A DNA stretch of 22,920 nt, taken from Candidatus Desantisbacteria bacterium CG1_02_49_89 (lineage in GTDB: Bacteria; Desantisbacteria; UBA1551). The position numbers and the translations under genes were made by a program. Shown here piece after piece: positions 751-19,100 of the stretch. Where the stretch lies: the NCBI GenBank assembly GCA_001871075.1, contig MNUP01000055.1, positions 1 to 22,920 of the forward strand. The letters run 5' to 3'. Positions within the stretch are counted from its first letter, which is position 1. Each line of letters starts with the position of its first letter. The notes under the pieces were generated by a model that was given only the letters and a program-made list of their open reading frames with translations, did not search any database and was not told the DNA's origin.

Positions 751-778
751 ACTAATGACAAATGACTAATGACCAATG
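751..778. repeat. 4 x 7-nt tandem array
   Basis: Four consecutive heptamers of the form ACNAATG or ACAAATG span 28 nt. The number of units and total length match the arrays at 2104, 6114, 6160, 6654, 13125 and 18401 although the heptamer sequence differs in each. Confidence 0.75.
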
Positions 779-850
779 ACTGTTTCTGCAACCACGAATT
801 AGCACGGATTTCCACGGATTCCTTGCACTATTGAACAATTGAACTATTTA

Positions 851-878
851 CGCATTTACGATGCACGATGCACGACCC
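851..878. repeat. 4 x 7-nt tandem array
   Basis: Two perfect ACGATGC units (858-871) are flanked by degenerate units, making 28 nt. An ATG inside the array (861) opens the ATPase frame, but it has no ribosome binding site and is not taken as the start. Confidence 0.6.
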
Positions 879-902
879 GCAAGGGCGATGAACGAGGTGT
901 AT

Positions 903-2039
903 ATGGTTTCAGTGAGGCTGCAAAATTTAAGCAGATCATTCGGCCAGGTGAAGGCTGTTGACAGCGTGTCGCTCGAGGTGCAGAAGGGAGAGCTTTTTTT
1001 CCTGCTTGGCCCGTCGGGCTGCGGCAAAACAACCGTCCTCAGGATGATAGCTGGATTCTACTCGCCTGACAGCGGGGACATCAGCTTTGACGGCAGGACA
1101 GTGAACGAAGTGCCGCCGCACAGGAGGAATACAGGGATGGTGTTCCAGAACTACGCGCTCTGGCCGCACATGACGGTTGAAAAGAACGTCGGATACGGGC
1201 TTGATATACGCCGCGTCCCCGCGGCGGAAAAAGCCGGGAAAATAAGGAAGGTGCTGGAAACGGTCAGGATGCTTGAATACGCGCAAAGGAAACCGGCGCA
1301 GCTTTCAGGCGGGCAGCAGCAAAGGGTCGCGCTTGCAAGGGCGCTTGTCATCGAGCCGGACCTGCTCCTGCTCGACGAGCCGCTTTCCAACCTGGACGCG
1401 AAACTGCGCCTGGAAATGCGCGGGGAGATAAAGAGGATACACGGCGAGACAGGGATCACCTCGATATACGTTACGCACGACCAGAAAGAGGCGCTTTCAA
1501 TGGCAGACAGGATCGCGGTAATGAACGCGGGAAAGATCGAACAGGTGGGTTCGCCGAGGGAACTCTACGAAAACCCGGCGGACAGGTTTGTAGCGGGTTT
1601 TATTGGCGAGACGAATTTCATAGAGGGAAAAGTAACCGGAACGCAGGATGACAGGGTGACGGTAGAGACACCGATAGGAATAATAATAGCCCAAATCCCC
1701 AACAAGTTGGGGCACCCATCCCGAACAAGTTCGGGCGCCCATCCCCAACAAGTCGGGGCGCCCAATTCGGCCGTCCAGCCAGGGGATGCAGTGGTTTGTT
1801 CAATCAGGCCTGAAGCGGTCGATGTCCTTGACGAGAAAGGCGGCGGGACAGAAAACGGGTTTGAATGCACGGTCGAATCCTTTATGTACCTCGGAGACAA
1901 CGAACAGTACCAGATCAGGATGAAGGACGGCGGCACAATGAAGGCGGTGGCGCATAATCCGTGGGGAAAGATGCGCAAAAACGGCAGTATCGCATGGATC
2001 CGGATAGAGCCTTCAAATGTAATACTCCTTAAAAAATGA
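903..2039 (+). CDS. ABC transporter ATP-binding protein (FbpC/PotA class) with a REP array inside the coding sequence
   Basis: This 378-residue protein is the cytoplasmic ATPase of the importer. It shows Walker A GPSGCGKTT (residues 36-44), the Q-loop in VFQNYALWPH, the signature LSGGQQQRVALARAL (about 134), Walker B LLLLDEPLSNLD and the H-loop YVTHDQKEAL, then a C-terminal TOBE region ending at residue 378. I place the start at ATG 903, directly after GAGGTG (894-899); the frame is open to 861, but that stretch is a tandem repeat. Residues about 264-288, in the TOBE region between TPIGIIIAQ and VQPGDAVVCSIRPEA, are encoded by three palindromic REP units of 23 nt, each read in a different frame; the total keeps the gene in frame. 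The insert lies outside the catalytic domain, so the protein is probably active. Substrate is unknown; Fe3+, sugar phosphate or polyamine are possible for the class. Confidence 0.9.
   Translation: MVSVRLQNLSRSFGQVKAVDSVSLEVQKGELFFLLGPSGCGKTTVLRMIAGFYSPDSGDISFDGRTVNEVPPHRRNTGMVFQNYALWPHMTVEKNVGYGLDIRRVPAAEKAGKIRKVLETVRMLEYAQRKPAQLSGGQQQRVALARALVIEPDLLLLDEPLSNLDAKLRLEMRGEIKRIHGETGITSIYVTHDQKEALSMADRIAVMNAGKIEQVGSPRELYENPADRFVAGFIGETNFIEGKVTGTQDDRVTVETPIGIIIAQIPNKLGHPSRTSSGAHPQQVGAPNSAVQPGDAVVCSIRPEAVDVLDEKGGGTENGFECTVESFMYLGDNEQYQIRMKDGGTMKAVAHNPWGKMRKNGSIAWIRIEPSNVILLKK
1697..1758 (-). repeat. REP array, three hairpins, inside the ATPase gene
   Basis: There are three 16-mers at 1697-1712, 1720-1735 and 1743-1758, spaced 23 nt apart. 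The first is CCCCAACAAGTTGGGG and the second CCCGAACAAGTTCGGG, a compensatory C-G to G-C change that keeps the 7-bp stem and AA loop. The third, CCCCAACAAGTCGGGG, has one mismatch. Read on the minus strand each hairpin is preceded by GGGCG, GGCG or GGTG and has a TT loop, matching the elements that flank the transposase gene at 7549. Confidence 0.85.
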
Positions 2040-2222
2040 GATACAGTTTACAGAGTTTACAAGTTTACAAAGTAAAAATCCGTGTGAATCCGTGGCTGAT
2101 TTCAGTATCAAGGGTCAAGTGTCAAGTATCAAGTTTAAACTAGAAAATATCTCTCTGTGCTTCCGTAATTCCGTGATTCCGTGGTAATCTTTCGTGCTTT
2201 CGTGGAAATCGGTGGTTTAAAA
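2040..2222. repeat. Repeat-filled spacer before the permease gene
   Basis: The spacer holds TTTAC-based tandem copies (2045-2068), a reversed CACGGATT-type element (2078-2100), a perfect 28-nt array at 2104-2131, and CACAGAG/CACGAAA-type octamers in reverse orientation (about 2149-2212). The permease frame is open from GTG 2181, but that segment is the reversed repeat. No gene is seen here. Confidence 0.65.
2104..2131. repeat. 4 x 7-nt tandem array
   Basis: Four heptamers of the form AGNNTCA are arranged without gaps; the first and fourth are identical (AGTATCA). Confidence 0.75.
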
Positions 2223-3887
2223 ATGAAGATAAAAATAGCTTTTTTCCTGATAATCCTGGTTTTCGCGGTATTTTTTTTCTACCCGCTCGGGTACGTTTTC
2301 ACGAAGTCATTCTATTTCAGCGGGGGATTTTCCGCTGTTTTTTTCAAATACATGTTCACCAACCCGATACTGAGGGAATCTATAACGAACAGTTTCATCC
2401 TCGGAATAACCGTCACGCTTATCACCGCGTGCCTGGCGATCCCGCTCGGGTTAATAATAAGCAGGTACAAGTTCAGGGGTAAGGGGCTGCTTTCAGGCCT
2501 TATGCTCCTGCCGATGATAATGCCCCCGTTTGTCGGGGCGATCGGGATGAGGCAGATGCTTTCAAGGTTTGGTTCCATAAACCTGCTGCTTATGAAAACA
2601 GGCTTGCTCAAACAACCCGTGGACTGGCTCGGAGGAAGCGGTTTCTGGGGGGTTGTCCTTATGGAAGTGCTCCACCTGTACCCGCTGATGTTCCTTAACG
2701 TGAGCACAGCTCTTGCGAACATAGATCCCAGCCTTGAAGAGGCGGGTATGAACCTCGGGGCTAACAGACGCAGGCTGTTCAACACTGTGACATTCCCCCT
2801 GATGATACCGGGTTTTTTCGCGGGCGCCAGCCTTGTTTTCATCTGGGCTTTCACGGACCTGGGCACCCCGCTTATATTTGAATACACAAGGCTTGTGCCT
2901 GTCCAGATATTCAACATGGTGACCGATATCGGCGAGAATCCGATGGGTTTCGCGCTGGTCGTGCTGGTCCTGCTTATGACAGTCACGCTTTTCTGGGTAT
3001 CGAGGAGGTTTGCCGGGGGCGAGGGCTACGCGATGATGGCAAAAGGCCAGGTTTCAAGGGTTGAGAAAGACGCGGGCCTTGCCGGGGCAATCCCGATATA
3101 CGTTTTCCTGGGCGGCGTAATTTTTATCTCGGTCCTGCCGCACATAAGCGTTCTGCTTACATCAATATCCAAGGAATGGTTCATGACAGTCCTGCCTTCC
3201 GAGACAACGTTCAAATACTACGGGCTCGTGTTCAGGCACCCGCTTACAGTTTCAAGCATAAGGAACAGCCTTTTTTTAAGCTCGATATCAACGGTGCTGG
3301 ACGTGGGCCTGGGATTGATGATCGCGTACCTGCTCGCGAGGACTTCCATAAAAGGTAAAGGACTGCTGGACGCTTTCACAATGCTTCCGCTGGCAGTGCC
3401 GGGCCTGGTGCTTGCTTTTGGTTACGTGGCGTCGTTTTCAGGCGGGATACTGGACCCAAGGAACAACCCGTTTCCGCTGCTGATAATCGCGTATACTATG
3501 CGGCGCATTCCCTACGTTGTGCGGGCCGCGTATGCCGGCTTCCAGCAGACAAGCGCGGCGTTTGAGGAGGCGTCCCAGAACCTGGGAGCAACGGCTTTTT
3601 ACACGTTCAGGAGGATCACGGCTCCGCTTATAAGCGCCAACATCATAGCCGGGGCGGTACTCGCGTTCTCGTTCGCGATGCTGGAGGTAAGCGACAGCAT
3701 AATACTGGCAATGAAGGAGCAGTTCTACCCGGTGACCAAAGCCATATACACGCTGGTAGGCCGCATAGCGGACGGGCCATATATCGCCAGCGCCATGGGA
3801 ATACTGGGCATGGCCCTGCTCGCAGTCAGCCTTCTTATTTCGAATAAATTCATCGGTAAGAAGATGGGCGAGCTTTTCCGCATTTAA
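2223..3887 (+). CDS. ABC transporter permease, double-domain FbpB/AfuB class
   Basis: This is a 554-residue inner-membrane protein with about twelve hydrophobic segments arranged as two tandem permease units. Each half carries an EAA loop that docks on the ATPase: EEAGMNLGANRRRLFN near residue 172 and EEASQNLGATAFYTFRR near residue 448. The length and the internal duplication fit the permeases of ferric, thiamine or sugar-phosphate importers (COG1178 type). I chose ATG 2223 because the hydrophobic segment KIAFFLIILVFAVFFF follows at once and the upstream extension is repeat DNA; GGTGG at 2211-2215 is a modest ribosome binding site. It completes the binding protein/ATPase/permease set. No substrate-specific residues can be read. 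Confidence 0.92.
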   Translation: MKIKIAFFLIILVFAVFFFYPLGYVFTKSFYFSGGFSAVFFKYMFTNPILRESITNSFILGITVTLITACLAIPLGLIISRYKFRGKGLLSGLMLLPMIMPPFVGAIGMRQMLSRFGSINLLLMKTGLLKQPVDWLGGSGFWGVVLMEVLHLYPLMFLNVSTALANIDPSLEEAGMNLGANRRRLFNTVTFPLMIPGFFAGASLVFIWAFTDLGTPLIFEYTRLVPVQIFNMVTDIGENPMGFALVVLVLLMTVTLFWVSRRFAGGEGYAMMAKGQVSRVEKDAGLAGAIPIYVFLGGVIFISVLPHISVLLTSISKEWFMTVLPSETTFKYYGLVFRHPLTVSSIRNSLFLSSISTVLDVGLGLMIAYLLARTSIKGKGLLDAFTMLPLAVPGLVLAFGYVASFSGGILDPRNNPFPLLIIAYTMRRIPYVVRAAYAGFQQTSAAFEEASQNLGATAFYTFRRITAPLISANIIAGAVLAFSFAMLEVSDSIILAMKEQFYPVTKAIYTLVGRIADGPYIASAMGILGMALLAVSLLISNKFIGKKMGELFRI

Positions 3888-4105
3888 CTTGCTTTTTTGC
3901 CAAAATATGGTACAATAATTACCACGAAATCACGAAAGTATCACGAAATCACGAAAAAAGTTTTTTCAACAGGGATCTTATGAAAATTTAAAATTCTTGA
4001 TATTAAACTAGAAGCTGAAAAATTAATTTAGTTTAAGTTCTCTTAAGTTCCCTGTAAAAAGAATCTTTCGTGTTTTCGTGCTTTCGTGGTAAAATGGAGG
4101 TTTTA
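3888..4105. repeat. Spacer before galT with CACGAAA repeats
   Basis: The spacer contains a forward CACGAAA octamer array at 3921-3958 and its reverse form at about 4062-4090. The part between them is AT-rich with no gene. The galT frame is open from GTG 4070 only because the reversed repeat lacks stops. Confidence 0.6.
3889..3916 (+). promoter_or_regulatory. Possible sigma70-type promoter for the galT block
   Basis: TTGCTT (3889-3894) and TACAAT (3911-3916) are separated by 16 bases. It lies just after the permease stop and would give a leader of about 180 nt. Moderate match only; there is no terminator before it. Confidence 0.35.
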
Positions 4106-5101
4106 ATGCCTGAATTAAGGCAGAATCTTGCGACCAAGGAATGGGTGATAATAGCCACGGAAAGGGCGAAAAGGCCTGAGGATTTTAAATCCACCAAGGC
4201 GAGGAAGGAGCAGCCTCCGTTCAGCAAAGAATGTCCTTTCTGCCCGGGCAACGAGATCAACACGCCGGGCGAGACCTACAGGATCTCAGACGAAAAGGGC
4301 TGGGTGGTCCGTTCGTTCCCCAATAAATTCGCGGCCCTTGTAAACGAAGGCGAGCGCATAAGGAAGATAAAGGGTATCCAAAGGTGGCTTAACGGGGTCG
4401 GCGTGCACGAGGTAATAGTCGAAAGCCCGGTCCACAACATGACGACCGCGCTCCTGCCTGTTGAGGGAGTGCGCCTTATAATAGAGCTTTACAGGGCGAG
4501 GTACAGGGAACTGCTGAAGGACGACAGGATGGAAACCATAGTTATTTTCAAGAACCACGGCGAAGCGGCCGGCACTTCGCTTGAACATCCGCATTCCCAG
4601 CTCATCGCCACCCCGGTAGTGCCGGGCCAGGGAAGGTACAGGCTTGAAGAGGCTATGAGGTATTACGACGACACCGGCGAATGCGTTTACTGCAAGATGC
4701 TGAATGAGGAGATAAAGGAACAGTCGAGGATGGTGATGGAAACGGACCATTTCGCCGCTTTCGTGCTGTACGCGGCGCTTGGCCCTTTCCATACCTGGAT
4801 CCTGCCCAAAAGGCACGCGCCGAATTTCGGCGAGATATCCGATAATGAAATGAGGGACATGGCTTACATACTGAGGACTGTCCTGGCGAAATTTTACCAC
4901 GGGCTGGATAACCCGGATTTCAACTACGTGATACGGTCCGCGCCCACTGGCGGCGGAGCCAACGATTACTACCACTGGTACCTAAGCATTGTTCCCAGGC
5001 TCTCGAAAACCGCAGGTTTTGAGCTGGGCTCGGGCATGTTCATCAATAGTTCGGTGCCTGAGGAAAACGCGAAATTCTTAAGGGAGGTCAGGGTTCCCTG
5101 A
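4106..5101 (+). CDS. galT: Galactose-1-phosphate uridylyltransferase
   Basis: This 331-residue Leloir-pathway enzyme exchanges UMP between UDP-glucose and galactose-1-phosphate. The active-site motif H161-P-H163-S-Q165 in GTSLEHPHSQLIATPVVP holds the uridylylated histidine (H163, by analogy with E. coli H166). C43 and C46 (CPFC) are the likely zinc ligands, and a second CxxC lies at 193-196. The C-terminal half has GPFHTWILPKRH and the HWYLSIVPR segment typical of the family. The start is ATG 4106, five bases after GGAGG (4097-4101); ATG 4094 and GTG 4070 lie upstream in repeat sequence. The stop is 7 bp before the next gene. Together with the mutase at 5994 it suggests galactose or related sugar use; related ADP-glucose phosphorylases are the main alternative. 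Confidence 0.9.
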   Translation: MPELRQNLATKEWVIIATERAKRPEDFKSTKARKEQPPFSKECPFCPGNEINTPGETYRISDEKGWVVRSFPNKFAALVNEGERIRKIKGIQRWLNGVGVHEVIVESPVHNMTTALLPVEGVRLIIELYRARYRELLKDDRMETIVIFKNHGEAAGTSLEHPHSQLIATPVVPGQGRYRLEEAMRYYDDTGECVYCKMLNEEIKEQSRMVMETDHFAAFVLYAALGPFHTWILPKRHAPNFGEISDNEMRDMAYILRTVLAKFYHGLDNPDFNYVIRSAPTGGGANDYYHWYLSIVPRLSKTAGFELGSGMFINSSVPEENAKFLREVRVP

Positions 5102-5108
5102 AACTAAC

Positions 5109-5990
5109 ATGGAAGAAGAAATGGACCAGAAAACACGGGCGAAATACGGTTTCCTTGAAGCCTGGGTTAGCATAGCAGGTAACACCGCTTTGTTTGTAGT
5201 TAAGGTGATAATAGGGTTTGCCATTAACAGTATTTCGCTCATAACAGACGCTTTCCATACCCTGTCAGACGTTCTTACGTCGGTAGTTGTCCTGGTGGGT
5301 TTCATGTTTACAAGGATGCCGGCTGACGAGCGCCACCCGCACGGGCACGGAAGGGTCGAACCCATCGCTACCCTTATCATCGCGCTTCTGCTGGCAATGG
5401 TGGCTTATGAGTTCGGCAAGCAGTCTATCGAGAGGTTTTTCCACCCTGAGCCTGTCAAAGGGACAGTGCTTGCAGTGGTGGTCCTGTTTGCTTCGGCGCT
5501 GGGAAAAGAATGGATGGCTCGGTTTTCATACAAGCTCGGAAAGAAGATCAACTCCGCGGCGCTTTACGCGGACGGCTGGCACCACAGGAGCGACGCCATC
5601 GCTTCCGCGCTTATACCGATCGCTATTATCGGCGCGATGTTCAAGGTTTACTGGCTTGACGCCGCATTCGGGATCGGGGTCGCGGTGCTTATCATGTATA
5701 CCGCGTTTGAGATCGCGCGCCCCAATATAGACGAGCTCATAGGCCATGCGCCCAGCAAGGAATTTATCAACAGGATCGAGCAGAGCGCGAGATCGGTAAA
5801 GGGCGTCGTGGGAGTGCACGCCATATCCGTGCATGAATACGGGGATTACTACAACGCGATCTCGATGCACATCGAGGTGGAAGGGAATATCAACATAAAC
5901 GAAGCGCATGCGATCGCGACCATGGTGGAACACAAAGTGAACACGGAAACAAAGGGTTCTGTCACCGTGCACGTTGAGATCAAGGAATAA
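5109..5990 (+). CDS. Cation diffusion facilitator family metal efflux protein
   Basis: This 293-residue membrane protein exchanges divalent metal for protons. Six hydrophobic segments occupy about residues 18-205. TM2 carries H50xxxD54 (TDAFHTLSD) and TM5 carries H158xxxD162 (ADGWHHRSD), the four-residue transport site of the family; the HD/HD composition is most common in zinc transporters. HPHGHGRVEP (76-85) is the usual loop after TM2. Residues about 215-293 form the cytoplasmic metal-binding dimerisation domain (GVVGVHAISVHEYGDYYNA). Start is ATG 5109 or ATG 5121; the latter has GGAAG just upstream. It follows galT by 7 bp and precedes the mutase by 3 bp, so it is in one transcription unit with them, though its link to sugar metabolism is unclear (metal supply is a guess). 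Confidence 0.92.
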   Translation: MEEEMDQKTRAKYGFLEAWVSIAGNTALFVVKVIIGFAINSISLITDAFHTLSDVLTSVVVLVGFMFTRMPADERHPHGHGRVEPIATLIIALLLAMVAYEFGKQSIERFFHPEPVKGTVLAVVVLFASALGKEWMARFSYKLGKKINSAALYADGWHHRSDAIASALIPIAIIGAMFKVYWLDAAFGIGVAVLIMYTAFEIARPNIDELIGHAPSKEFINRIEQSARSVKGVVGVHAISVHEYGDYYNAISMHIEVEGNININEAHAIATMVEHKVNTETKGSVTVHVEIKE

Positions 5991-5993
5991 AAG

Positions 5994-7463
5994 ATGCCCG
6001 GGAACAGCGATATAAAATTCGGCACGTCGGGATGGCGGGCGATAATCGGCAGGGACTTCACGTTCGCGAATGTCCGCCTGGTTTCGCGCGCGATCGCGGC
6101 CTACCTTAAAACCGTTCATCGTTCATCGTTCATCGTTCATCGAAAAAGAAGTATTTCACGCACGACGTCCGGCGTCCGGCGTCCGACGGTGGTTGTGGGG
6201 CACGACACGCGGTTTATGAGCGAGGATTTCGCTTTTGAATGCAGCAGGACGCTTGCGGAAGAAGGCATCCAGCCGCTTCTCACAAGAGAAGACACGCCCA
6301 CCCCGGTCATAGCTTACGAGATAATAAGAAGGAAGCTCGCGGGCGGCATCAATTTCACTGCCAGCCACAACCCTTACTGTTATAACGGCATAAAATTCTC
6401 CCCGTCATACGGTGGGCCGGCGTTCCCGGAAATAACCAACGAAATAGAGAAAAACATTAATAGGATTTCCACGAAAGCACGAAACCTTCGGCACGAAAAC
6501 ACGAAAAGATCTGGAGTAAAAATCAAATATATTGATCCGAAAGAAAAATACATAAAAAGAATCAAAGAATTGGTGGACCTGAAAGCGCTCAGGAAACTGA
6601 AGATCGTCTGCGATCCGTTGTACGGCACCGGTCGAACTTATTTTAGTAATATCTTACGACGTACGACGTACGACGTACGACTGATCCACGACTGGCGGGA
6701 CGTGATGTTCGGCGGGGGAAGACCTGAGCCTGATGCTGAGACCCTGAAAGAGCTCGCGGCAAAAGTAAAGGCAGAAAAAGCCGATATCGGCATAGCCACG
6801 GACGGTGACGGGGACAGGTTCGGTATAATTGATTCTGACGGGACATACATCAACCCGAACGCTGTGGTAACACTGCTTGTATACTACCTGCATAAAACGC
6901 GCGGCTGGAAAGACGCGGTAGTGCGCAGCATCGCGACAACTCACATGGTAGACGCTGTAGCGAAGAAATACGGGATGGAAACAATAGAGACTCCGGTAGG
7001 GTTCAAGTTCATAGCGGAAGTTATGCAGGAGCGCGATATCACCATAGGCGGTGAAGAGAGCGGCGGGTTGACAATACGCAGGCATGTCCCGGAAAAGGAC
7101 GGCATCCTTGCCTGTCTGCTTATGGCTGAAATGGTGGCGAACGAAAAGAGACCGATCAAACAGATACTCGCGGGTTTATACAGGCAGGTTGGCCTATTCG
7201 TCCCGGGCAGGATAAATCTCCGCCTGACGCCTGAAATGAGCAGGAACCTGCGCAACAACCTTATTAAGCCCTTTAAGGACATTGAGGGCATTAAGATCAT
7301 TGGAAAAAATACAATTGACGGGACAAAATTCCTGCTTGAGGACGGGTCCTGGGTGCTTTTCAGGTTCTCGGGCACAGAGCCGGTTGCCCGCGTTTACGCC
7401 GAATCCAGCTCCGCCAAAAAGCTGAATATCCTGCTTAACGCCGGCAGGAAAATGGTACAATAG
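5994..7463 (+). CDS. Phosphoglucomutase/phosphomannomutase family enzyme with repeat-encoded insertions
   Basis: This alpha-D-phosphohexomutase (489 residues) interconverts hexose 1- and 6-phosphates. The phosphoserine is S124 in TASHNPYCYNGIKF, the metal loop is D270-G-D272-G-D274-R, the sugar-binding loop is GGEESGGL (352-359) and the phosphate-binding loop is RFSGTEPVARVY (from 457). The start ATG 5994 follows AAGGAAT, which overlaps the previous stop. Three regions are longer than expected and coincide exactly with repeat DNA: residues about 41-65 (two heptamer arrays), about 159-173 (CACGAAA repeat) and about 221-230 (heptamer array). All core motifs are intact, so the enzyme is probably functional with surface insertions. 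The TAG stop overlaps the first base of the REP array at 7463. Confidence 0.92.
   Translation: MPGNSDIKFGTSGWRAIIGRDFTFANVRLVSRAIAAYLKTVHRSSFIVHRKRSISRTTSGVRRPTVVVGHDTRFMSEDFAFECSRTLAEEGIQPLLTREDTPTPVIAYEIIRRKLAGGINFTASHNPYCYNGIKFSPSYGGPAFPEITNEIEKNINRISTKARNLRHENTKRSGVKIKYIDPKEKYIKRIKELVDLKALRKLKIVCDPLYGTGRTYFSNILRRTTYDVRLIHDWRDVMFGGGRPEPDAETLKELAAKVKAEKADIGIATDGDGDRFGIIDSDGTYINPNAVVTLLVYYLHKTRGWKDAVVRSIATTHMVDAVAKKYGMETIETPVGFKFIAEVMQERDITIGGEESGGLTIRRHVPEKDGILACLLMAEMVANEKRPIKQILAGLYRQVGLFVPGRINLRLTPEMSRNLRNNLIKPFKDIEGIKIIGKNTIDGTKFLLEDGSWVLFRFSGTEPVARVYAESSSAKKLNILLNAGRKMVQ
6114..6141. repeat. 4 x 7-nt tandem array within the mutase gene
   Basis: Four perfect GTTCATC units code for the VHRSSFIVH segment between the conserved AAYLK and VVVGHDTRFMSE blocks of the mutase. 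All three frames of the heptamer are read in succession. Confidence 0.85.
6160..6187. repeat. 4 x 7-nt tandem array within the mutase gene
   Basis: Two perfect GTCCGGC units, then GTCCGAC, preceded by a degenerate unit GCACGAC. It lies 18 bp after the array at 6114, so two unrelated heptamer arrays were placed next to each other in one coding insertion. Confidence 0.75.
6468..6507. repeat. CACGAAA-type repeat within the mutase gene
   Basis: This is the same CACGAAAGCACGAAA element that fills spacers at 620, 3921, 9590 and 19110, here read in frame as STKARNLRHENTKR. A short CCTTCGG interrupts the units. Confidence 0.8.
6654..6681. repeat. 4 x 7-nt tandem array within the mutase gene
   Basis: Three perfect GTACGAC units are preceded by TTACGAC. 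The array codes for LRRTTYDVR between FSNI and LIHDWRDVMFGG. Confidence 0.85.
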
Positions 7464-7542
7464 GAAGCCTCAACTTGTTGAGGGAGATCTGGAAGCCTCA
7501 ACTTGTTGAGGGAGATCTGGAAGCCTCAACTTGTTGAGGGAG
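7463..7542 (+). repeat. REP array upstream of the RAYT gene (three units, 28-nt period)
   Basis: Three tandem units each contain GGAAG followed by the hairpin CCTCAACTTGTTGAGG (7468-7483, 7496-7511, 7524-7539; 7-bp stem, TT loop). The third unit is cut at 24 nt by the transposase leader. The hairpin differs from the downstream family only by a T-A for C-G exchange in the stem. The GAGGGAG that closes the third unit (7536-7542) also serves as the ribosome binding site of the transposase gene. Confidence 0.9.
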
Positions 7543-7548
7543 TTTTTA

Positions 7549-8076
7549 ATGAATAAACCATATCACCCACCACACTTTTATAAGGAAAATACCGACTACT
7601 TTATTACTGCCCATACTTTTGATAAAAGAAGGTTCTTCACAACTGAGACAGAAAAAGAAATGCTGTTGAAGGTTCTTTATTCGGCGGCTAACGCGCATAG
7701 CATTTTTATTCATACATGGGTTATACTTGATAATCATTATCATCTTTTAATTAAAATTAACACTACAGAGAAACTTGTAAAATTCATCAAAAGCCTGCAT
7801 GGCAAGAGCGCTATAGAACTGAATAAAATTAATTCAACCCCAGGTCAGAAGATTTGGGTAAATTACTGGGATCACTGTATCCGTTCAAAAAAAGATTTTT
7901 GGGTTCATTTCAATTATATACATAACAATCCTTTAAAGCATGGATATGTTAAGAATTTCAATAAACTAATTGACTATAAATTTTCAGGATACAGTCAATG
8001 GGTTGAAGAAAAAGGAGTGGATTGGTTAAAAGATATATGGGAAACATATCCTGTGGTAGATTTTGAGAAAGAATAA
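7549..8076 (+). CDS. REP-associated tyrosine transposase (RAYT, Y1/HUH family)
   Basis: A 175-residue single-strand DNA transposase of the IS200/IS605-like Y1 superfamily. The HUH motif is in WVILDNHYHLLIKI (here H-Y-H, about residues 65-67) and the candidate nucleophilic tyrosine is in FNYIHNNPLKHGYV, the usual RAYT signature near the C-terminus. Length and the N-terminal ITAHTFDKRRFF strand fit the family. Start ATG 7549 has GAGGGAG 6 bases upstream; the frame extends to TTG 7531, but that is REP sequence. The gene is AT-rich with AAA/ATT/TTA codons, unlike the GC-rich neighbours, which suggests acquisition. It sits between a mutase and a HAD phosphatase gene and is bounded by oppositely oriented REP arrays, the standard arrangement for RAYT/REP pairs. 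It is not flanked by insertion-sequence ends, so it is probably a domesticated or REP-mobilising enzyme. Confidence 0.92.
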   Translation: MNKPYHPPHFYKENTDYFITAHTFDKRRFFTTETEKEMLLKVLYSAANAHSIFIHTWVILDNHYHLLIKINTTEKLVKFIKSLHGKSAIELNKINSTPGQKIWVNYWDHCIRSKKDFWVHFNYIHNNPLKHGYVKNFNKLIDYKFSGYSQWVEEKGVDWLKDIWETYPVVDFEKE

Positions 8077-8082: not shown

Positions 8083-8179
8083 CCCCAACAAGTTGGGGCG
8101 TCCTGAAACCCCGAACAAGTTCGGGCGTCCTGAAACCCCGAACAAGTTGGGGCGTCCTGAAACCCCCAACAAGTTGGGG
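8083..8179 (-). repeat. REP array downstream of the RAYT gene (four units, 27-nt period)
   Basis: Hairpins lie at 8083-8098 and 8164-8179 (CCCCAACAAGTTGGGG), 8110-8125 (CCCGAACAAGTTCGGG, compensated) and 8137-8152 (CCCGAACAAGTTGGGG, one mismatch). On the minus strand most read GGACG-hairpin with a TT loop, that is, inverted with respect to the array at 7463. The period of 27 nt equals nine codons, so the array leaves the HAD reading frame open and, if translated, would give a repeated peptide such as TPNKLGRPE. Confidence 0.9.
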
Positions 8180-8197
8180 CACCCTGTGGAGGAAAGA

Positions 8198-9586: not shown

Positions 9587-9736
9587 AGATTTCCACGAAA
9601 GCACGAAAGTGTCACGAAGGCACGAAGGAATCTTTAGCTTTTGCTGACAACTGACAACTGCTTTTGCAACCACGGAATTTTTCGTAACATCGTTGAAAAT
9701 AGAGCAATTGAGCAATAGATTGTAAAGGAGGAAGAA
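9587..9736. repeat. Repeat-filled leader of the FecR gene
   Basis: Octamer CACGAAA units occupy 9592-9628, two CTGACAA heptamers lie near 9645-9658 and two GAGCAAT-type units lie near 9702-9717. No gene or terminator is seen in this spacer. Confidence 0.6.
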
Positions 9737-11805: not shown

Positions 11806-11810
11806 ATTTC

Positions 11811-11839: not shown

Positions 11840-11847
11840 AATCTTAA

Positions 11848-11869: not shown

Positions 11870-12026
11870 AGCTGTAAAAACACTACCTCATTATTACACT
11901 CCTTACACTTTCTCCTATATAATATATGATCAACGCGCCAGGCATGCTCCCTTTATGCGCCCCATACCGCCCTTTCCGGAATTTATGAAAAATATTGCGA
12001 AAAAAAATCACGCCGAGGAGAAAAAG
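11870..12026. other. Long leader of the LacI gene
   Basis: The leader is 157 nt, pyrimidine-rich at 11880-11918 with imperfect TTACACT copies. The frame is open through it, but no upstream ATG has a ribosome binding site as good as GAGGAG at 12015-12020. No known riboswitch motif was recognised. Confidence 0.5.
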
Positions 12027-13073
12027 ATGACCAAATTTACCATCAGTGACATAGCAAGGATAGCGGGAGTTTCGCTGGCTACGGTTTCCCGCGCCCTGAA
12101 CAACAAGCCGCGCATAAGCACGGTCACAAGAGATAAAATATTGGAAATCGCCAGCAGGAACGGATACAATCCCAATCCGCTTGCCAGGGGCCTGAGCAGG
12201 GGGAGAACGAATAACATAGGCCTTGTGGTCATAGACATAACCAACCCCTTTTATTCCCCCATCATCCAGGCGGTAGAGAAAAGGGCTGAAGAAGAAGGTT
12301 ATAATCTTCTTGTCGTAAATTCGCAGCATTCTTCCGCGAGGGAGGAAAAATACATCAACAGTCTTGTCCAGCAGAGGGTTTCGGGCATCATTGTTTCTCC
12401 CGTGCAGGACCCCAGAAAATACCTGGGTATGCTTAAGAAAAGGAAGATACCTGTCGTTTTCCTGTATCCCCCGTCAGGAGCAAAGTGCGACAGCGTTGAC
12501 GTGGATAACGTAAAGGGGGCTTATGGCGCAGTCACCCACCTTATTAAGCTCGGACACCGCCAGATTGCTTACATAAGCCGCGGTTTACTGCACAGGCATC
12601 CTTCTTCCAAACGCCTGCTCGGATACAAGAAAGCCCTCCGGAGCAGCGGCATACCTTTCAATGAAAAGTTCATGGTGAAGACGATCACAGACCAGGGCAG
12701 GATTGAGGAAGGTTACCAGGCGACCCTGAAGCTGCTTTCTAACGGCGTGAGGCCCACCGCAATTTTTGCGTTCAACGACCTGATCGCGATGGGCTGCCTT
12801 AAAGCCCTGAAGGAGAAGGGTTTGAAAGTGCCTGATGACATGGCTGTGGTCGGATTTGATGACATTGAATTCGCTCCGTTCCTGGAAGTTCCGCTTACAA
12901 CCGTCAGAATACCGGAATACGAAGTAGGTGAAATAGCGGTAAAACTTTTATTTGAAAGGATAGACAGCGGCAGGATGAACGGGAAATACAGGAAGGTCTG
13001 CCTTTCTCCGGAACTGGTGATCAGGAAATCGTGCGGTTCAAAAAATTCAAACCTTATACAGGAAAAGGAATAA
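12027..13073 (+). CDS. LacI-family transcriptional regulator
   Basis: 348 residues. The N-terminal helix-turn-helix ISDIARIAGVSLATVSRALN (about residues 5-24) and hinge helix NPLARGLSRGRTNNIG are followed by a periplasmic-binding-like sensor domain (about 60-335) with FAFNDLIAMGCLKALKEKG and the VVGFDDIEFAPFLEVPLTTVR block. ATG 12027 is six bases after GAGGAG. The gene is downstream of a perfect operator and ends 3 bp before the giant GH123-like gene, so both are likely repressed together until a sugar from the degraded glycan binds. The specific inducer cannot be read; the family binds free or phosphorylated sugars. Confidence 0.95.
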   Translation: MTKFTISDIARIAGVSLATVSRALNNKPRISTVTRDKILEIASRNGYNPNPLARGLSRGRTNNIGLVVIDITNPFYSPIIQAVEKRAEEEGYNLLVVNSQHSSAREEKYINSLVQQRVSGIIVSPVQDPRKYLGMLKKRKIPVVFLYPPSGAKCDSVDVDNVKGAYGAVTHLIKLGHRQIAYISRGLLHRHPSSKRLLGYKKALRSSGIPFNEKFMVKTITDQGRIEEGYQATLKLLSNGVRPTAIFAFNDLIAMGCLKALKEKGLKVPDDMAVVGFDDIEFAPFLEVPLTTVRIPEYEVGEIAVKLLFERIDSGRMNGKYRKVCLSPELVIRKSCGSKNSNLIQEKE

Positions 13074-13076
13074 CCC

Positions 13077-16000
13077 ATGAAAAAATTCAATCCAATATTT
13101 TTTATCTGTTTGCTGCTTGTTTTAACCTTACACCTTACACCCTGCACCTTACACTGCTACGCCGCAGAGCGCGGCTTAGTGGCTTATTGGAGCTTCGACG
13201 AGGGCAAGGGCCAGATCTCGGAAGACCTGTCAGGCAACAGGCATGACGCGGTCATAAACGGCGCGGCGTGGGAGAAGGACGGCATAGGGTTCTGCCTTTC
13301 CTTTGACGGGGCTTTAAACCTTGTTGAGGTAAAGCACGCGAATGACCTTGGCCTTACAACCGCGGGCACGGTTATGTTCTGGATGAAGGCGTCCGGTTCA
13401 AACAGCGCCTGGCAGAACGTGATTCGCAAGTGGGGCGGGGATTCGCGCAATTACGGCATATACCTGAACGTTGATAACGGCAATCTCGCGTGGTCCGCTT
13501 CCTACAGGGAAAATCCGGCTCCTTTCAGCGATGCTGCTTCGGGTTTTATTGCCTGGGACGATACCTGGCACCATATCGCGGTCGTGTTCAACGGCTCTGA
13601 GCCAAAGGTCGCTTTTTACGTAGACGGCTCTGAATACTACAGCGCAGACCCGGGTTTCGCGGAAATGAAGACCAACAACGAAGCCCTTGCGATAGGCGAC
13701 CATTTTCCCGGAATGATGGACGAGGTGAAGATCTACAACCGCGCCCTCACTTCCGAGGAAATAGAGAAGTATTATTTTGAGACGAGTAAAAGACTCGGTG
13801 AAACACCCAAGGAAAAGAAATCCGACAGGACCCCTTTGGGGGAGAAGAAGGTTGAAAAGGCTGTTCCCGCGAAAACAGAAAAGAAAAAAGAAGCAGGGCC
13901 CAAGGGACTTGTAAGTTATTACGGGTTTGAGCCCAATGACCCCGAAGAATGGGCGCCAAGCCCGGGCGGAACCGTTACAGCAGAGAAGAAGGAAGTGATA
14001 TCCGGAAAATCCTCTATGGAAGGCAACAGCATGGGATCTTCAAGTGACTGGAACGAGTTCTTCCACTCGGATCCCGCGAAGCTTCCGTTTGAAGGCGGCA
14101 AGACATATACAGTCTATTTCAAGTACAAGGTCCTTGACAAGGGAGACAGCTCAAAATCTTATTTTCTGATGCGCTCAACAATAGGCGGAGCGCCCGGACC
14201 TTCTGATAAGGGCTGGACAGATATAACAGAGGAACCCGGGGAAGAAGGCGCTAAAACTATAACTTTCGCGCTCGATGATTTTCCCGATTATCTTATTATC
14301 ATAGGTATTTATAAACAGAGTTCAATTGTCATAGATGACCTTGCCGTATTCGAAGGTGAAGTGGACGAAGGGATGATAGAAAGCGTTATTAAGGATCTGA
14401 ACAGGAACAAGCCTAAAGAACAAAAGGAACCTATAAAAAAAGAGGTTACCAAAGAACCTATAAAGGATAACAAGAGAACCGAAGTTAAGGAACCTGTTGA
14501 GCCCGTTAATGAGGAATGGCGCGCGCTGTACGTGCCGGGGGGCGGGTTCTGGAGCAAGAGGATAGGCATAGACCTGCAGGACGTTTCGGGCGAGGGGGTT
14601 GCAGGCGAGCCGGTGGACATAAAGATCGGCAGGCAGAAGGGAGAGATCGGCCTGGCGGGTTTTGAAGCAAGGGAAGTAAGGGTGTGCGATGACAGGGGCA
14701 ATGAATTCATTTTTTCAATATATGACGCAAAGGGCATACCCCTGAGAGAGGGAAAGATCCCTGAAGGCGGGCTTCTTACCATCCCGGCCGAGCTGAAACC
14801 CGGAGCTTCAAAGCGCTATTACGTTTATTTTGACAACCCGTCAGCCTGGCTTGTGCCGGATTACTTTGAAATAACCAGGGAGGTCCGCAATAACGGGTTT
14901 GAGGAAAAGACCTGGTGGGAGTGGGCAGGGGCGCAAAGGGTCACGGACAAATATTATTCCGGCGCGGCGAGCGCGCGGCTTGAGGCGGACGGCAGCAACG
15001 GGGAAGGGCCTTATACCCTGTTTATGCCTGTGCCTGAGAGTACCTCGTTTGTCCTGACAGTCTCGTTTATGTACGACATAGACATAACCGACGGAAGGTA
15101 CTGGATGAGCGTTTTCCACTATGACAAGAACGGCAACGCGATACCCAGGGCGCCCGGAGCCGCCGAGGGTCACTCGGATATTTTTACAACCGACAAATCC
15201 ACTAACGGCTGGAAAAAGTTCAGCATTACAATGGGCCAGTCCGGTTCAGGAGCGGATTTCATACTTCCCGAAGGCACGGCGAAAATGAAGCTAAGGGGAT
15301 GTTTCTGGGACGCGGACGGTTCCAACACGGGTATAGCGTGGCTGGATGATTTCAACATTGAAGGAATTGAGAAAAATCCTTCCAATGTCCGGGCATCTGT
15401 GAAACAACTTGAAAAAATGGATCTGCGACGCTCAGCTGCGGTAAAACCACAGTGGCTTTCAGACCAGGGCAAGACCTGGGAATACAGGATGCCTGTGGAG
15501 ATCAGGAATTTCGCTTCGCAGGATATAAGCAACTCAATGCTGTTTGTGAACACGCTGAGGTTCAGGGTAAGGATGAAAGGGCTTGCGACTGACGCTTCTA
15601 TAAGGGTTGCTGACGCGGAAGGCAGGATAATACCGCATTCGAGCTTCACGGACAACGTGGTGTTCTCGGGAAGCTGCAAGCCGTTCGGCGCCGGCATTTA
15701 CTATATCTATGCGTCAAAAGACCCCGGAATAACAGGTTCGTCTTCAGGGCCAGGCGACCTTGCAAAGAGCAAATCAAACCTTGTTAAGAACCCGGATTTT
15801 GAGGAAGGAGAAGGTCTGCCTGCGGGCTGGAGGTCAGAGGTTGAAGTCGGCAAAGAAGGGGACCAGGTCATATACAGCAAGGACCCCAATGTCAAGTATG
15901 AGTGGCTTAAGGCAGGGATATCAGGGAACCGCTGCGTAAAAATGGAGGTTTCGCCTGACGCGCCTTCCGCGTGGCGGGGCTGGAGGCAGATAGTTCCGGT

Positions 16001-18041
16001 AAAACCCGGCAAGTCCTACTTCTACGGCGGTTACGTGAAAACCGAAAATATTGAAGGTGAAGTCAGGATGCATATACATTTTCTCGACAAAAGCGGCAAG
16101 CTGTGCGGCACTAAATTCTTTGCCACTCCTGACAGCCTGAAAGGCACCAACGACTGGACAATGCTGACAGCTATGCTGACCACCCCGCCTGACTGCGTTT
16201 CAGTTGAGATACACCTTACTATGGATGCCAGGGGCACGATCTATCACGACACGGTTGTGCTGTGCGAGGCAATGGACGCTGTTGCCGGCAACATTGAAAG
16301 CCTTATACCTTCAAAGGAAGGGATAGCCGCATGGCAGGTAAACCCGATAATAAAGGTGTTCCAGGATGACCCTGCCAGGGAAACCCCGAAGGAATTTTCT
16401 ATTTCTTCGGCGCGGAACGAAAAAGAACCTTTGCAGGTCGCGATCCGCAGCGCTAAGGACCTGAAGGGCGTTAACGTAAGAGTTGAACTGCCCGCCGATG
16501 AGGCGGGGGCAAAACTCCAGGACTTCAAGATCGAGAGAATAGGGTTTGTTCCATGCGACGTCAATTCTAATTATTTCAGTTCAGACCTTCCTTCCTGGCG
16601 CAGAAATATACCCAACGGCGGTCCGGGTTCAGACGGGTGGCCGGGTATATGGCCTGACCCTGTGCTTCCGCTAAGGCAGTTTGACCTTCCTGCGAACACA
16701 ACCCAGCCTGTGCTTATAACCGCGAGCATACCGAAGAACGCGAAACCCGGAGACTATACCGGTAAAGTCATTATTGAATCAGGCGGTAAGCCGCTCATAA
16801 CAGCGCCTTTCAGGATAAAGGTGTGGGATTTTGAGCTTCCTGACGAATCCCACCTAACAGCGCTGTTCGATCTGGGCAACGGGCCGGGGTGGAGCTTCCT
16901 GGATATGACTAACAGGAAACTGTGGTACAAACTTATGGCAGAGCACAGGGTATGCGCGAATGCCATAGAGCCGGGCCCTGTGATAAACTACAGTAATGGA
17001 AGAGTTACGCTGGACACTACCGAATTCGACAAAATGGCAAAATATTATTTCGACGATCTGAAAATGAATAAGACCTATCTGCCCGGGATCTTCTACAGCT
17101 TCGGCTGGGGATTTGAGCCCAGGGGTATTTACGGATTCTCGTACCCATCCGAAGGATATAAGGAAGCGTACCAGACCGTGCTGAAAGCGGTATGGGAGCA
17201 CGTGAAGGAAAAGGGCTGGGACAAGAAATTCCTCCTGTATATATCAGATGAGCCGGATGCCTGGAATTCCGTGGTGGGAAAGCGGATGGTGGAGCAGATG
17301 AAGGGCGTGTGCGACATAATACACGAGGCGGCTCCTGACGTGAACATATATTCCAGCACCTGGAGGTTTGTGCCTGAATGGGTGGGATATCTGGACGTGT
17401 GGGGAGTGGGCAATTATGGATGTTTTCCCGTGGATGAAATGGAGCGCAGGCTGAAGGACGGGGATAAACTGTGGTTCACGACTGACGGGACTATGTGCCT
17501 GAACACGCCTTATAACGCGATAGAAAGGCTGTACCCGTATTTCTGTTTCAAATACGGGGTTTCAGCCTATGAATTCTGGGATATATCCTGGTGGACATAC
17601 GATCCGTTCAAGTTCGGGTGGCACACCTACCTTCCGCATGTTTTCAAGCCGGGCGACAAGCCAATAGGGGTAAGGTACCCCAACGGGGACGGGTTCCTCA
17701 CGTATCCAGGCTGGCTTGCCGGTGAAACCGGGCCGCTTAGCTCTGTGCGTTTTGAGCAGGTAAGGGAAGGGATGGAAGACTACGAGTATATGTATATCCT
17801 TAAGAACCGCATTGACGCCGCGAAAAAGAAATCTTCTGGAGTGCAAGCCTTTTCGAAGACCCGCCAAGGTATTGATGGAGGGAGGCTTGCAGAAGCCGAG
17901 GCAGCGCTTGAGAAAGCAAGAGCTCTTGTTACAATACCCAACGCCGGCGGCACGAACTCAACAAAGATCCTGCCTGACCCGGACGCGGTTTTAAAGATAC
18001 GCGAAGAAATGGCGCGGGCGATATTGGGGCTGGCAGAGTAG
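13077..18041 (+). CDS. Giant secreted multi-domain protein with LamG, carbohydrate-binding-like modules and a GH123/DUF4091-like C-terminus
   Basis: 1654 residues. A signal peptide (about 1-30) is followed by a LamG/concanavalin-like domain (about 34-235; AYWSFDEGKG, DDTWHHIAVVFNG, GMMDEVKIYNRAL), a Lys/Glu linker, a jelly-roll-like module (about 285-425), a KEP-rich linker (about 440-475), DUF2341-like and carbohydrate-binding-like modules (about 480-770 and 785-1075; NGFEEKTWWEW, LVKNPDFEEG), and a C-terminal block (about 1095-1640) opening with SSARNEKEPLQVAIRS and carrying FLLYISDEPD. The D1391-E1392 pair fits the catalytic Asp-Glu of GH123 beta-N-acetylgalactosaminidases; VREGMEDYEYMYILKNRID is the usual end of the DUF4091 region. 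AAAGGAA precedes ATG 13077, 3 bp after the LacI stop. Two stretches are repeat-encoded: the signal peptide core and residues about 1589-1605. The TAG stop lies within the GTAG foot of a REP hairpin. Likely surface or exported glycan-degrading enzyme; activity is inferred. Confidence 0.85.
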   Translation: MKKFNPIFFICLLLVLTLHLTPCTLHCYAAERGLVAYWSFDEGKGQISEDLSGNRHDAVINGAAWEKDGIGFCLSFDGALNLVEVKHANDLGLTTAGTVMFWMKASGSNSAWQNVIRKWGGDSRNYGIYLNVDNGNLAWSASYRENPAPFSDAASGFIAWDDTWHHIAVVFNGSEPKVAFYVDGSEYYSADPGFAEMKTNNEALAIGDHFPGMMDEVKIYNRALTSEEIEKYYFETSKRLGETPKEKKSDRTPLGEKKVEKAVPAKTEKKKEAGPKGLVSYYGFEPNDPEEWAPSPGGTVTAEKKEVISGKSSMEGNSMGSSSDWNEFFHSDPAKLPFEGGKTYTVYFKYKVLDKGDSSKSYFLMRSTIGGAPGPSDKGWTDITEEPGEEGAKTITFALDDFPDYLIIIGIYKQSSIVIDDLAVFEGEVDEGMIESVIKDLNRNKPKEQKEPIKKEVTKEPIKDNKRTEVKEPVEPVNEEWRALYVPGGGFWSKRIGIDLQDVSGEGVAGEPVDIKIGRQKGEIGLAGFEAREVRVCDDRGNEFIFSIYDAKGIPLREGKIPEGGLLTIPAELKPGASKRYYVYFDNPSAWLVPDYFEITREVRNNGFEEKTWWEWAGAQRVTDKYYSGAASARLEADGSNGEGPYTLFMPVPESTSFVLTVSFMYDIDITDGRYWMSVFHYDKNGNAIPRAPGAAEGHSDIFTTDKSTNGWKKFSITMGQSGSGADFILPEGTAKMKLRGCFWDADGSNTGIAWLDDFNIEGIEKNPSNVRASVKQLEKMDLRRSAAVKPQWLSDQGKTWEYRMPVEIRNFASQDISNSMLFVNTLRFRVRMKGLATDASIRVADAEGRIIPHSSFTDNVVFSGSCKPFGAGIYYIYASKDPGITGSSSGPGDLAKSKSNLVKNPDFEEGEGLPAGWRSEVEVGKEGDQVIYSKDPNVKYEWLKAGISGNRCVKMEVSPDAPSAWRGWRQIVPVKPGKSYFYGGYVKTENIEGEVRMHIHFLDKSGKLCGTKFFATPDSLKGTNDWTMLTAMLTTPPDCVSVEIHLTMDARGTIYHDTVVLCEAMDAVAGNIESLIPSKEGIAAWQVNPIIKVFQDDPARETPKEFSISSARNEKEPLQVAIRSAKDLKGVNVRVELPADEAGAKLQDFKIERIGFVPCDVNSNYFSSDLPSWRRNIPNGGPGSDGWPGIWPDPVLPLRQFDLPANTTQPVLITASIPKNAKPGDYTGKVIIESGGKPLITAPFRIKVWDFELPDESHLTALFDLGNGPGWSFLDMTNRKLWYKLMAEHRVCANAIEPGPVINYSNGRVTLDTTEFDKMAKYYFDDLKMNKTYLPGIFYSFGWGFEPRGIYGFSYPSEGYKEAYQTVLKAVWEHVKEKGWDKKFLLYISDEPDAWNSVVGKRMVEQMKGVCDIIHEAAPDVNIYSSTWRFVPEWVGYLDVWGVGNYGCFPVDEMERRLKDGDKLWFTTDGTMCLNTPYNAIERLYPYFCFKYGVSAYEFWDISWWTYDPFKFGWHTYLPHVFKPGDKPIGVRYPNGDGFLTYPGWLAGETGPLSSVRFEQVREGMEDYEYMYILKNRIDAAKKKSSGVQAFSKTRQGIDGGRLAEAEAALEKARALVTIPNAGGTNSTKILPDPDAVLKIREEMARAILGLAE
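13125..13152. repeat. 4 x 7-nt tandem array within a signal peptide
   Basis: Three ACCTTAC units and one ACCCTGC. They code for TLHLTPCTLH in the hydrophobic part of the signal peptide of the giant protein. Confidence 0.8.
17842..17891. repeat. Large-loop REP element inside the giant gene
   Basis: TGCAAGCCT (17842-17850) pairs with AGGCTTGCA (17883-17891) around a 32-nt loop whose CGAAGACCCGCCAA is shared with the elements at 20289 and 22704 (minus strand). It is read in frame as VQAFSKTRQGIDGGRLAE near the C-terminus. Confidence 0.85.
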
Positions 18042-18258
18042 TGGCAGAGCTTGCTCTGCAATTTGAAAAGCGTGTCAACGTGTCAACGTATCAGCGTGTC
18101 AGAGCAACGGCAAGGTAGCCGCAGGCTTCAGCCTGCGTGTAGGGGCGGGCTTGCCCGCCCGAAGCTTGCCCTGAACCCGAGCGTGCGAGTGGTTCGGGGG
18201 TAGCCACAACCTTTAGGTTGCGTAGGGCATTTGTAACTCAGGGCTTTAGCCCTGAGTT
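18038..18258 (+). repeat. Cluster of GTAG/GTAA REP hairpins
   Basis: Five hairpins follow one another. GTAG 18038 with GCAGAGC/GCTCTGC; GTAG 18115 with CGCAGGCT/AGCCTGCG; GTAG 18139 with GGGCGGGC/GCCCGCCC; GTAG 18200 with CAACCT/AGGTTG; GTAA 18233 with AACTCAGGGCT/AGCCCTGAGTT. Every loop is TT or TC. The first GTAG contains the stop codon of the giant gene. An 8-nt array (four GCGTGTCA-like units, 18070-18101) and a GAACC/GGTTC hairpin (18173-18195) lie between them. The rest of the spacer to 18365 (about 105 nt) shows nothing further. Confidence 0.88.
18070..18101. repeat. 4 x 8-nt tandem array
   Basis: Units GCGTGTCA, ACGTGTCA, ACGTATCA and GCGTGTCA follow one another without gaps, between two REP hairpins. 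Confidence 0.75.
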
Positions 18259-18365
18259 TAATCACCGTAATCAGTAGTTAAAAATCACTGGAATTCGTCG
18301 TTTATCGACAAAACACACAAAGAATGTTGCGAAGCAAAGATCTTCAGTAACAAAAGGAGCGACGT

Positions 18366-19100
18366 ATGAAAAAATTAATTTTAGTTATTTTGGTATTAAC
18401 GTTCAACTTTCAACTTTCAACTATGAACTGTGCCGGCGCGGACGACAAGGTGGTCATCAAGAAGGCTAAGTCCGCGATGGCAATAGACGGCAAACTGGAA
18501 GACTGGAAGGGCTATGAGGCGATAAAGCTGAATGCGCCTGAGCAAAGCACCAACCCTGACAAGGATCCAAAGGATTTTTCTTCAGTATGCTATGTCGCGT
18601 GGGATAAAGACAACTTATATTTTGCAGCTGATGTCACGGATGATCTTGTTTCCTGCGAGGATATCACAACATCGGATTTCCAGCACTGCGATTATTACAG
18701 GTTCTATCTGGATATGGGGAATAACAGGAACGAGGGCAGCGGGAATATGGATGACGATGATTTTGAGTTCGTGTTCACACCTTCAGGGCCTGATAAGAAG
18801 CCGATGGTGCGAGAGGTTTCAAAGGCGTTCGGCGGAGAAGGCCACGGCCTTGATCTGAGCAAAGTAAAAGTAGCTGCAGGGCTTGCCCTGCCTGATAAAA
18901 AGGGCTGGATTCTTGAAGCCGCCATTCCCTGGAGCATGATAGGAACCACGCCCAAGGAAGGGACAGCATTCGGCATAAAGTTCATAACAGGGGATACGGA
19001 CCAGGAAGGGCAGAGGGAAGACGAATATATCTGGGGGGACATGAGCGGCAGCTACTGGCAGGACCCGACAAAGTTCGGCTCCGCCATCCTCGGACAGTAA
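18366..19100 (+). CDS. Secreted CBM9-like carbohydrate-binding protein
   Basis: 244 residues. After a signal peptide (about 1-24) almost the whole protein is a carbohydrate-binding family 9-like (DOMON-type) domain: AIDGKLEDWKGY (39-50), VAWDKDNLYFAADVTDD (77-93), DDFEFVFTP, and GWILEAAIPWSMIG before a FGIKFITGDTDQEGQREDEY block. ATG 18366 has AAAAGGAG at 18352-18359. It follows the GH123-like gene and probably works outside the cell or in the periplasm on the same glycan. Residues 169-176 (VAAGLALP) are encoded by a GTAG-REP hairpin, and the signal peptide core LTFNFQLSTMN by a heptamer array. No catalytic residues are recognised. Confidence 0.85.
   Translation: MKKLILVILVLTFNFQLSTMNCAGADDKVVIKKAKSAMAIDGKLEDWKGYEAIKLNAPEQSTNPDKDPKDFSSVCYVAWDKDNLYFAADVTDDLVSCEDITTSDFQHCDYYRFYLDMGNNRNEGSGNMDDDDFEFVFTPSGPDKKPMVREVSKAFGGEGHGLDLSKVKVAAGLALPDKKGWILEAAIPWSMIGTTPKEGTAFGIKFITGDTDQEGQREDEYIWGDMSGSYWQDPTKFGSAILGQ
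18401..18428. repeat. 4 x 7-nt tandem array within a signal peptide
   Basis: GTTCAAC, two TTTCAAC and TATGAAC follow one another in the coding sequence of the signal peptide, at the same relative place as the array at 13125 in the giant protein. Confidence 0.8.
18870..18891 (+). repeat. GTAG-REP hairpin inside the CBM9-like gene
   Basis: GTAG (18870-18873) is followed by GCAGGGC (18876-18882), TT, GCCCTGC (18885-18891). Foot, spacing and TT loop match the intergenic REPs at 18038-18160. Read in frame as VAAGLALP. Confidence 0.75.

Follow-up and report, generated by a model that had tools for sequence, protein, structure and literature searches.

The window analysed here, a stretch of 22,920 nt from contig MNUP01000055.1 of Candidatus Desantisbacteria bacterium CG1_02_49_89, carries genes for a solute-binding protein, an ABC-ATPase, a permease, galT and a phosphoglucomutase-like protein, with short arrays of tandem, directly repeated words both between and within genes (all features are given on the + strand). 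The initial annotation had pointed to eight such arrays, each of about four heptamers. All eight were found close to where it had placed them, and eight period-7 arrays in the window score at least 11, as against 0.1 in second-order Markov sequence. The figure of about four units suits six of the eight, while those at 858 and 6166 contain 2.6 and 2.9 units, respectively. The same size class is also filled by window arrays of periods 8, 9 and 10, built from the words CACGAAAN, CACRGAGN, GTTTACANA, CACGRATTNN and MGTRTCAR.

Arrays between and within genes of the window

The region leading into the ABC-ATPase gene illustrates how these arrays can follow one another. A period-8 CACGAAAN array at 684-704, from a family of ~50 loci, precedes three period-8 units of CACRGAGN as read from the sequence (712-734), a word present in 12 of 386 genomes. 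Four units of AATGACH (754-780) then lie between the genes for the solute-binding protein and the ABC-ATPase, and this array's word recurs with fixed edges (TTTTAACT..TG) at 13 loci of the genome sample. They are followed by three period-10 units of CACGRATTNN (793-820), a related word of which is common to an unrelated family, and by 2.6 units of ACGATGC (858-875; 23 loci in the genome sample) ahead of an ATG at 903 that is probably the true ABC start. Farther along the window, a CACGAAAN double array occupies 3923-3956, and an array of CTTTCGTG, the reverse of CACGAAAN, sits just 5′ of galT (4065-4088). Additional arrays are formed by CACGAARN (9594-9628), by 2.4 units of CTGACAA (9644-9660) and by four period-8 units of MGTRTCAR (18071-18102), whose family has about 60-70 loci.

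The phosphoglucomutase-like gene (5994-7463), assigned through Pfam and aligned with its counterpart in a same-order relative and with structure 1tuo, contains four in-frame arrays. The first, 4.3 units of CGTTCAT at 6113-6142, encodes a loop (aa 40-51) whose residues are gapped in distant homologues, and the second, 2.9 units of CGTCCGG at 6166-6185, encodes aa 58-65. The third is a CACGAAAN double array (6470-6508) at a site where the relative has CACAGAGNNCACAGAG-like sequence, and the fourth, 3.9 units of TACGACG (6655-6681), leaves the net length unchanged. Three of the four encode residues absent from distant homologues and from 1tuo. At the codons matching the fourth array (aa 221-231), the relative carries a heptamer array of AAATTTC/AGATTGC type. 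Site-specific exchange, an idea suggested by this gene, was not retained; insertion-tolerant loops explain most cases and leave aa 221-231 unexplained. Two other genes in the window appear from their translations to have the end of a signal peptide encoded by an array, namely an ACCTTAC-type array in a gene for a GH123-like protein (13125-13154) and an AACTTTC array in one for a CBM9-like protein (18398-18429).

Repeats of other kinds are present as well. The ABC-ATPase gene has three in-frame 23-nt palindromic repeats of ATCCCCAACAAGTTGGGGCGCCC type (1695-1764), where the relative is without ~20 residues; the commonest 12-mer of the genome sample, ATCACYGTAATC (92 copies), occurs in the window at 18261; and a long near-duplicate block (AACAGGGATTCA.CGGGAATTTAAA ... 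GACACCTTTTTTATT) is present in two consecutive copies at 20361-20858. An Rfam search of the window gave no match to a known RNA family.

Numbers, vocabulary and placement in the genome

The genome was sampled as stretches amounting to 1.06 Mb of 2.48 Mb (43%), with genes called simply as the longest ORFs. This sample contains 266 period-7 arrays, where one would be expected in Markov-generated sequence, and another 172 of periods 8, 9 and 10 (79, 58 and 35, respectively), with periods 3-6 and 11-13 almost empty. Copy number is narrow, in that 169 of the 266 period-7 arrays round to four copies (a four-copy share given as 61%) and their length has its mode at 31 nt. Arrays of periods 8 and 9 also have mostly four copies, and those of period 10 mostly three, for 28-29 nt. 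The coefficient of variation of period-7 copy number is 0.17 here versus 0.76 among 287 period-7 arrays of other phyla, a mostly cyanobacterial set fetched through one word that serves as a guide and not as an unbiased survey. Thus, the constant array size that had been proposed from the window extends to the genome, the sharp peak suggested for a genome-wide scan is there with a band reaching to period 10, and the broad spread of unit numbers and periods that would speak against it was looked for and not seen.

The arrays were also said to have unrelated sequences, with a different heptamer every time. While this describes the window itself, it breaks down genome-wide, where the units form a recurrent vocabulary of 73 canonical heptamers for 266 arrays. 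The commonest of these are AATTATG (29 arrays), ACGACGT and AACGTGT (16 each) and AACTCAT (14), and among the period-8 arrays the AACGTGTC word accounts for 32 of 79. Window words mostly recur at 11-42 loci in the sampled 43% of the genome, as compared with 0-1 for the same words reversed. The exception is CGTCCGG, at three loci versus one reversed; for AACTTTC, found at 29 loci, the control is uninformative because the reversal is a rotation of the word itself. Together, the Markov and reversed-word controls rule out chance or low complexity. Unit sharing by single-mismatch clustering is clear for periods 8-10 and uninformative for period 7, where random units also reach 98%.

Each family keeps a constant phase and short conserved edges, such as TTTTAACT before and TG after AATGACN, TTAAC before CACGRATTNN, and AATCAANNGNANGG after ARTKATG. 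In view of this recurrent vocabulary, the arrays are better described as many families of dispersed cassettes. Two families form larger structures: of 61 ARTKATG arrays, 40 stand in inverted pairs, which keep one relative orientation throughout and have a gap mode of 47-50 nt, and of 71 MGTRTCAR arrays, 20 are so paired. Other families are single, as in CACGRATTNN, where all 48 of 48 arrays stand alone.

With respect to placement, 319 of 445 non-overlapping arrays (72%) are intergenic, in a sample of which intergenic DNA makes up 14%. The remaining 28% lie inside genes, at starts, at ends and in internal protein loops; 43 of them are at most 90 nt from the gene start, often in signal peptides. 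In gaps between co-directional genes, array frequency peaks shortly past the stop codon of the upstream gene, and arrays lie nearer to such stops than to starts. Their strand relative to genes is near 50:50 for most families, with CACGAAAN, at 28:7, being the exception. A role at the RNA level was rejected on this general lack of strand bias, CACGAAAN excepted. Of the intergenic DNA, 32% lies under 12-mers seen at least six times, a figure that takes in dispersed repeat words of all kinds.

Outside this genome, some words are shared widely and others are private. Arrays of CACAGAGN occur in 12 of 386 genomes, with 85 sites in one of them, and the reversed pattern in five. Among the same 386 genomes, GTTCATC arrays are found in four, CACGGATTNN likewise in four (this one and three of one other family, with none for the reversed word), and CGTGTCAA only here. 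A universal vocabulary was considered and discarded, as a mere 15 of 163 heptamer arrays from cyanobacterial and other loci match the word list, which is near chance.

Added DNA and the origin of the arrays

A single genome of the same order (G001) served as the relative. Its protein identity to the present genome is only ~62%, and empty sites were therefore read from gene order rather than from DNA alignment. It contains six period-7 arrays in 0.86 Mb. Its dispersed repeats and commonest 12-mers are palindromes, such as AACTCAGGACTTTAGTCCTGAGTTAC; related palindromes also occur here, and the heptamer words are mostly missing from the relative. The relative keeps the gene order of solute-binding protein, ABC-ATPase, permease, galT and phosphoglucomutase, and in it the ATPase and permease genes overlap at an ATGA. 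Here, the two are split by 187 nt of five word arrays (locus 2032-2226), comprising GTTTACA (2045-2073), AATCCGTG, TCAAGTR (2104-2134), TTCCGTGA (2157-2183) and CTTTCGTG. Copies of AAAAATGA flank this locus at 2032-2039 and 2219-2226, and the pair could reflect either duplication of the target or a start codon made anew. Direct repeats in 25 gaps average 4.6 nt versus 3.8 nt in shuffles, and no consistent target duplication was found across these gaps.

The same trend is visible over 74 conserved adjacent gene pairs. Median gaps here and in the relative are 54 and 1 nt without an array, 126 and 18 nt with one, 137 and 15 nt with two, and 186 and 24 nt with three (a single pair). Thus, the more arrays a gap holds, the longer it tends to be in this genome, a rise that the relative does not show (Spearman 0.33, p 0.005); the linear slope is 33 nt per array (p 0.07). 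Array-bearing gaps are 100-160 nt longer than in the relative, and gaps that lack arrays likewise exceed those of the relative to some extent. Within genes, 34 array sites could be aligned to the relative; some are clean in-frame insertions, one of which consists of an array together with its family's GCAAGGA edge, some hold other inserted material, and at a few the relative carries a weak, different heptamer array.

The arrays are accordingly real, non-random, recurrent, fixed in architecture and tied to DNA that is added with respect to the relative. A moderately likely explanation, and the one preferred here, is that they constitute many families of very small insertion cassettes that disperse in trans and do not arise by slippage in place. 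Such a cassette would be ~23-40 nt long, with a 7-10 nt word repeated three or four times in degenerate form between short fixed edges, and would stand alone or serve as the arms of an inverted element of roughly 100 nt. An activity acting in trans would copy cassettes into new places. Most of them would survive in intergenic gaps, which they would lengthen, often in series, whereas within genes only cassettes that keep the reading frame and fall in loops, signal peptides or termini would survive. We infer that copying and insertion account for the spread of each family, with the degenerate letters being positions that are tolerated or re-drawn. The mechanism is likewise inferred, since no mobilising enzyme was found among the matches to IS200-like transposases and reverse transcriptases. 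Moreover, some in-gene arrays, including that at aa 221-231 of the phosphoglucomutase, align without net change in length, and this counts against insertion.

Replication slippage in place, in which a polymerase duplicates local heptamers and polymerase contacts favour a unit of 7 nt, would draw on the finding that, in many prokaryotes, no long-unit repeat is commoner than the heptamer (PMC4679880), and like words could have converged. The initial annotation had already thought slippage an unexpected source of arrays of constant size, and the wider analysis points the same way. Plain slippage fits badly with about four units per array in a narrow distribution, with phase and edges shared across a recurrent vocabulary, and with variable letters that are fixed in position and differ in frequency between units. 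Gap expansion, in addition, far exceeds one array per gap. We therefore regard slippage as improbable.

Just as improbable is mobilisation by RAYTs (IS200-like REP-associated transposases), which would make the arrays degenerate REPIN-like elements. This genome has 10 Y1_Tnp matches versus three in the relative, and the ARTKATG family forms inverted pairs. One Y1_Tnp gene of RAYT type lies in the window itself (7531-8076) between two REP-like palindrome arrays, with 28-nt units upstream (7463-7542) and 27-nt units downstream (8083-8180), a layout typical of REP/RAYT loci. The RAYT genes are flanked by palindromes and not by heptamer arrays, which was the ground for rejecting this candidate, and most families are single direct-repeat arrays that lack a palindrome, as CACGRATTNN does in 48 of 48 cases.

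A very improbable origin is RNA-templated synthesis, whereby a telomerase-like or DRT10-like reverse transcriptase would write short repeats that are then captured at breaks. A bacterial reverse transcriptase that produces tandem-repeat DNA does exist (PMC12632851), and a unit with a variable junction letter and a limit of ~30 nt could be taken to resemble the products of a short, repeatedly used template. The many words would nevertheless call for as many templates, the words carry family-specific flanks, and this 93.5% complete genome yielded a single match to a reverse transcriptase, partial and at a contig end, on which this origin was rejected. The match lies at 37201-37527 of contig C119 (G000, L299), where the contig end cuts it. 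Its motifs appear to resemble those of diversity-generating retroelement enzymes.

The least explained part of the picture is variation within families. Whole-array haplotypes are shared above chance in four of nine families tested, with observed versus chance values of 8 versus 0.8 for CACGRATTNN, 13 versus 2.1 for YAHGACN, 27 versus 14.9 for AATGACN and 37 versus 16.5 for ARTKATG. No clear sharing was seen in MGTRTCAR, CACRGAGN, GTTTAYANA and CGTNCNT, and the test was uninformative for CACGAAAN. Some families thus bear visible traces of copying, whereas in others copying either did not take place or has left no trace. Among 176 intergenic units of MGTRTCAR, position 4 is G in 110 and A in 66, position 8 is A in 103 and G in 72, and position 1 is C in 154 and A in 20, with substitution at other positions of at most about 3%. 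The two main variable letters, 4 nt apart, are not linked (odds ratio 0.75, p 0.43), and units 1 and 4 favour G (33 of 44 and 34 of 44), whereas units 2 and 3 have it in about half. The lack of both haplotype sharing and letter linkage in this family is a pattern that simple copying does not predict.

One reading of this pattern is that every word serves as the recognition site for a DNA-binding protein, with four contiguous sites kept by selection and the free letters not discriminated. The near confinement of intergenic MGTRTCAR substitutions to fixed letters, their lack of linkage, and the preference of end units for G, with middle units about even, would all be compatible with binding sites. 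On the other hand, dozens of unrelated words would require one protein each, and periods of 7, 8, 9 and 10 would set neighbouring sites on different faces of the DNA. The 28% of arrays in genes, the lack of orientation bias in most families and the closeness to upstream stop codons also fit poorly, so that selection for binding seems unlikely on balance. Distinctly unlikely, yet conceivable, is that a dedicated activity writes four-unit cassettes from a genome-specific codebook and redraws the degenerate letters at each site, which would make the arrays a generated, non-copied kind of dispersed element. This reading predicts both the unlinked letters of MGTRTCAR and its unit-position frequencies.

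Relation to known repeat systems

Among long-unit repeats, those of 7 nt are the most frequent in many prokaryotes, and slippage has been proposed for them (summarised in PMC4679880). For example, TAACTGA arrays of Beggiatoaceae are abundant, intergenic, of 2-6 copies and scattered in phylogeny, with no known mechanism (PMC4679880). The present arrays are likewise abundant and mostly intergenic. In Beggiatoaceae, however, there is one word and related heptamers are rarely repeated, whereas here 73 canonical heptamers are found, related words are repeated, and periods 8-10 are added. In cyanobacteria, the tRNA-Leu intron of Nostoc contains degenerate heptamers that form complementary arms, with P6b motifs TDNGATT and NNTGAGT (PMC4476775), and G-rich heptamers of GGGNATC type are known from Xanthomonas and Nostoc (PMC4692102). 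The arrays described here share with the cyanobacterial heptamers their 7-nt units, fixed degenerate positions, mostly intergenic placement and complementary arms built of heptamers. They differ in having about four units, many words and periods 7-10, while the cyanobacterial ones have broad copy number (coefficient of variation 0.76 in the one-word set) and few words per study; open-ended copy number is not seen here.

Other small elements offer further comparisons. Like REP/REPIN sequences (PMC3116915), the arrays are very short, dispersed and extragenic, partly in inverted pairs, and IS200-like transposase genes are found alongside them in the genome; unlike these sequences, they are direct repeats and not palindromes, and the RAYT genes are not flanked by arrays. 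With regard to the terminal inverted repeats of MITEs, inverted pairs are formed by ARTKATG (40 of 61) and MGTRTCAR (20 of 71) arrays, all other families being single; with regard to their target site duplications, the window has the AAAAATGA pair, and the mean over the 25 gaps is 4.6 versus 3.8 nt. With its one partial reverse transcriptase, the genome gives no support for classing the arrays as DRT10-like products.

Small dispersed repeats of Nostoc are the subject of a 2008 study by Elhai that PMC3116915 cites. They are reportedly about 21-27 nt long and regarded as mobile, and they are not known to have a tandem-word structure. In the open-access literature searched, no account was found of a genome that pairs a large vocabulary with a narrow copy number and a band of periods from 7 to 10. 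What is new in comparison with known heptamer repeats is the combination, in one genome, of many words, narrow copy number, periods 7-10 and hairpin pairs.

Heptamer repeats have been on record in bacteria for decades, still without a mechanism. The arrays of this genome are genuine, and as a genome-wide feature they are strong and unusual; they most likely spread by the insertion of small cassettes. With several hundred uniform arrays, many families and identifiable empty sites, the choice among insertion, slippage and selection becomes directly testable. Moreover, the genome demonstrates that a sizeable share of the intergenic DNA of a bacterium can consist of dispersed repeat words of all kinds.
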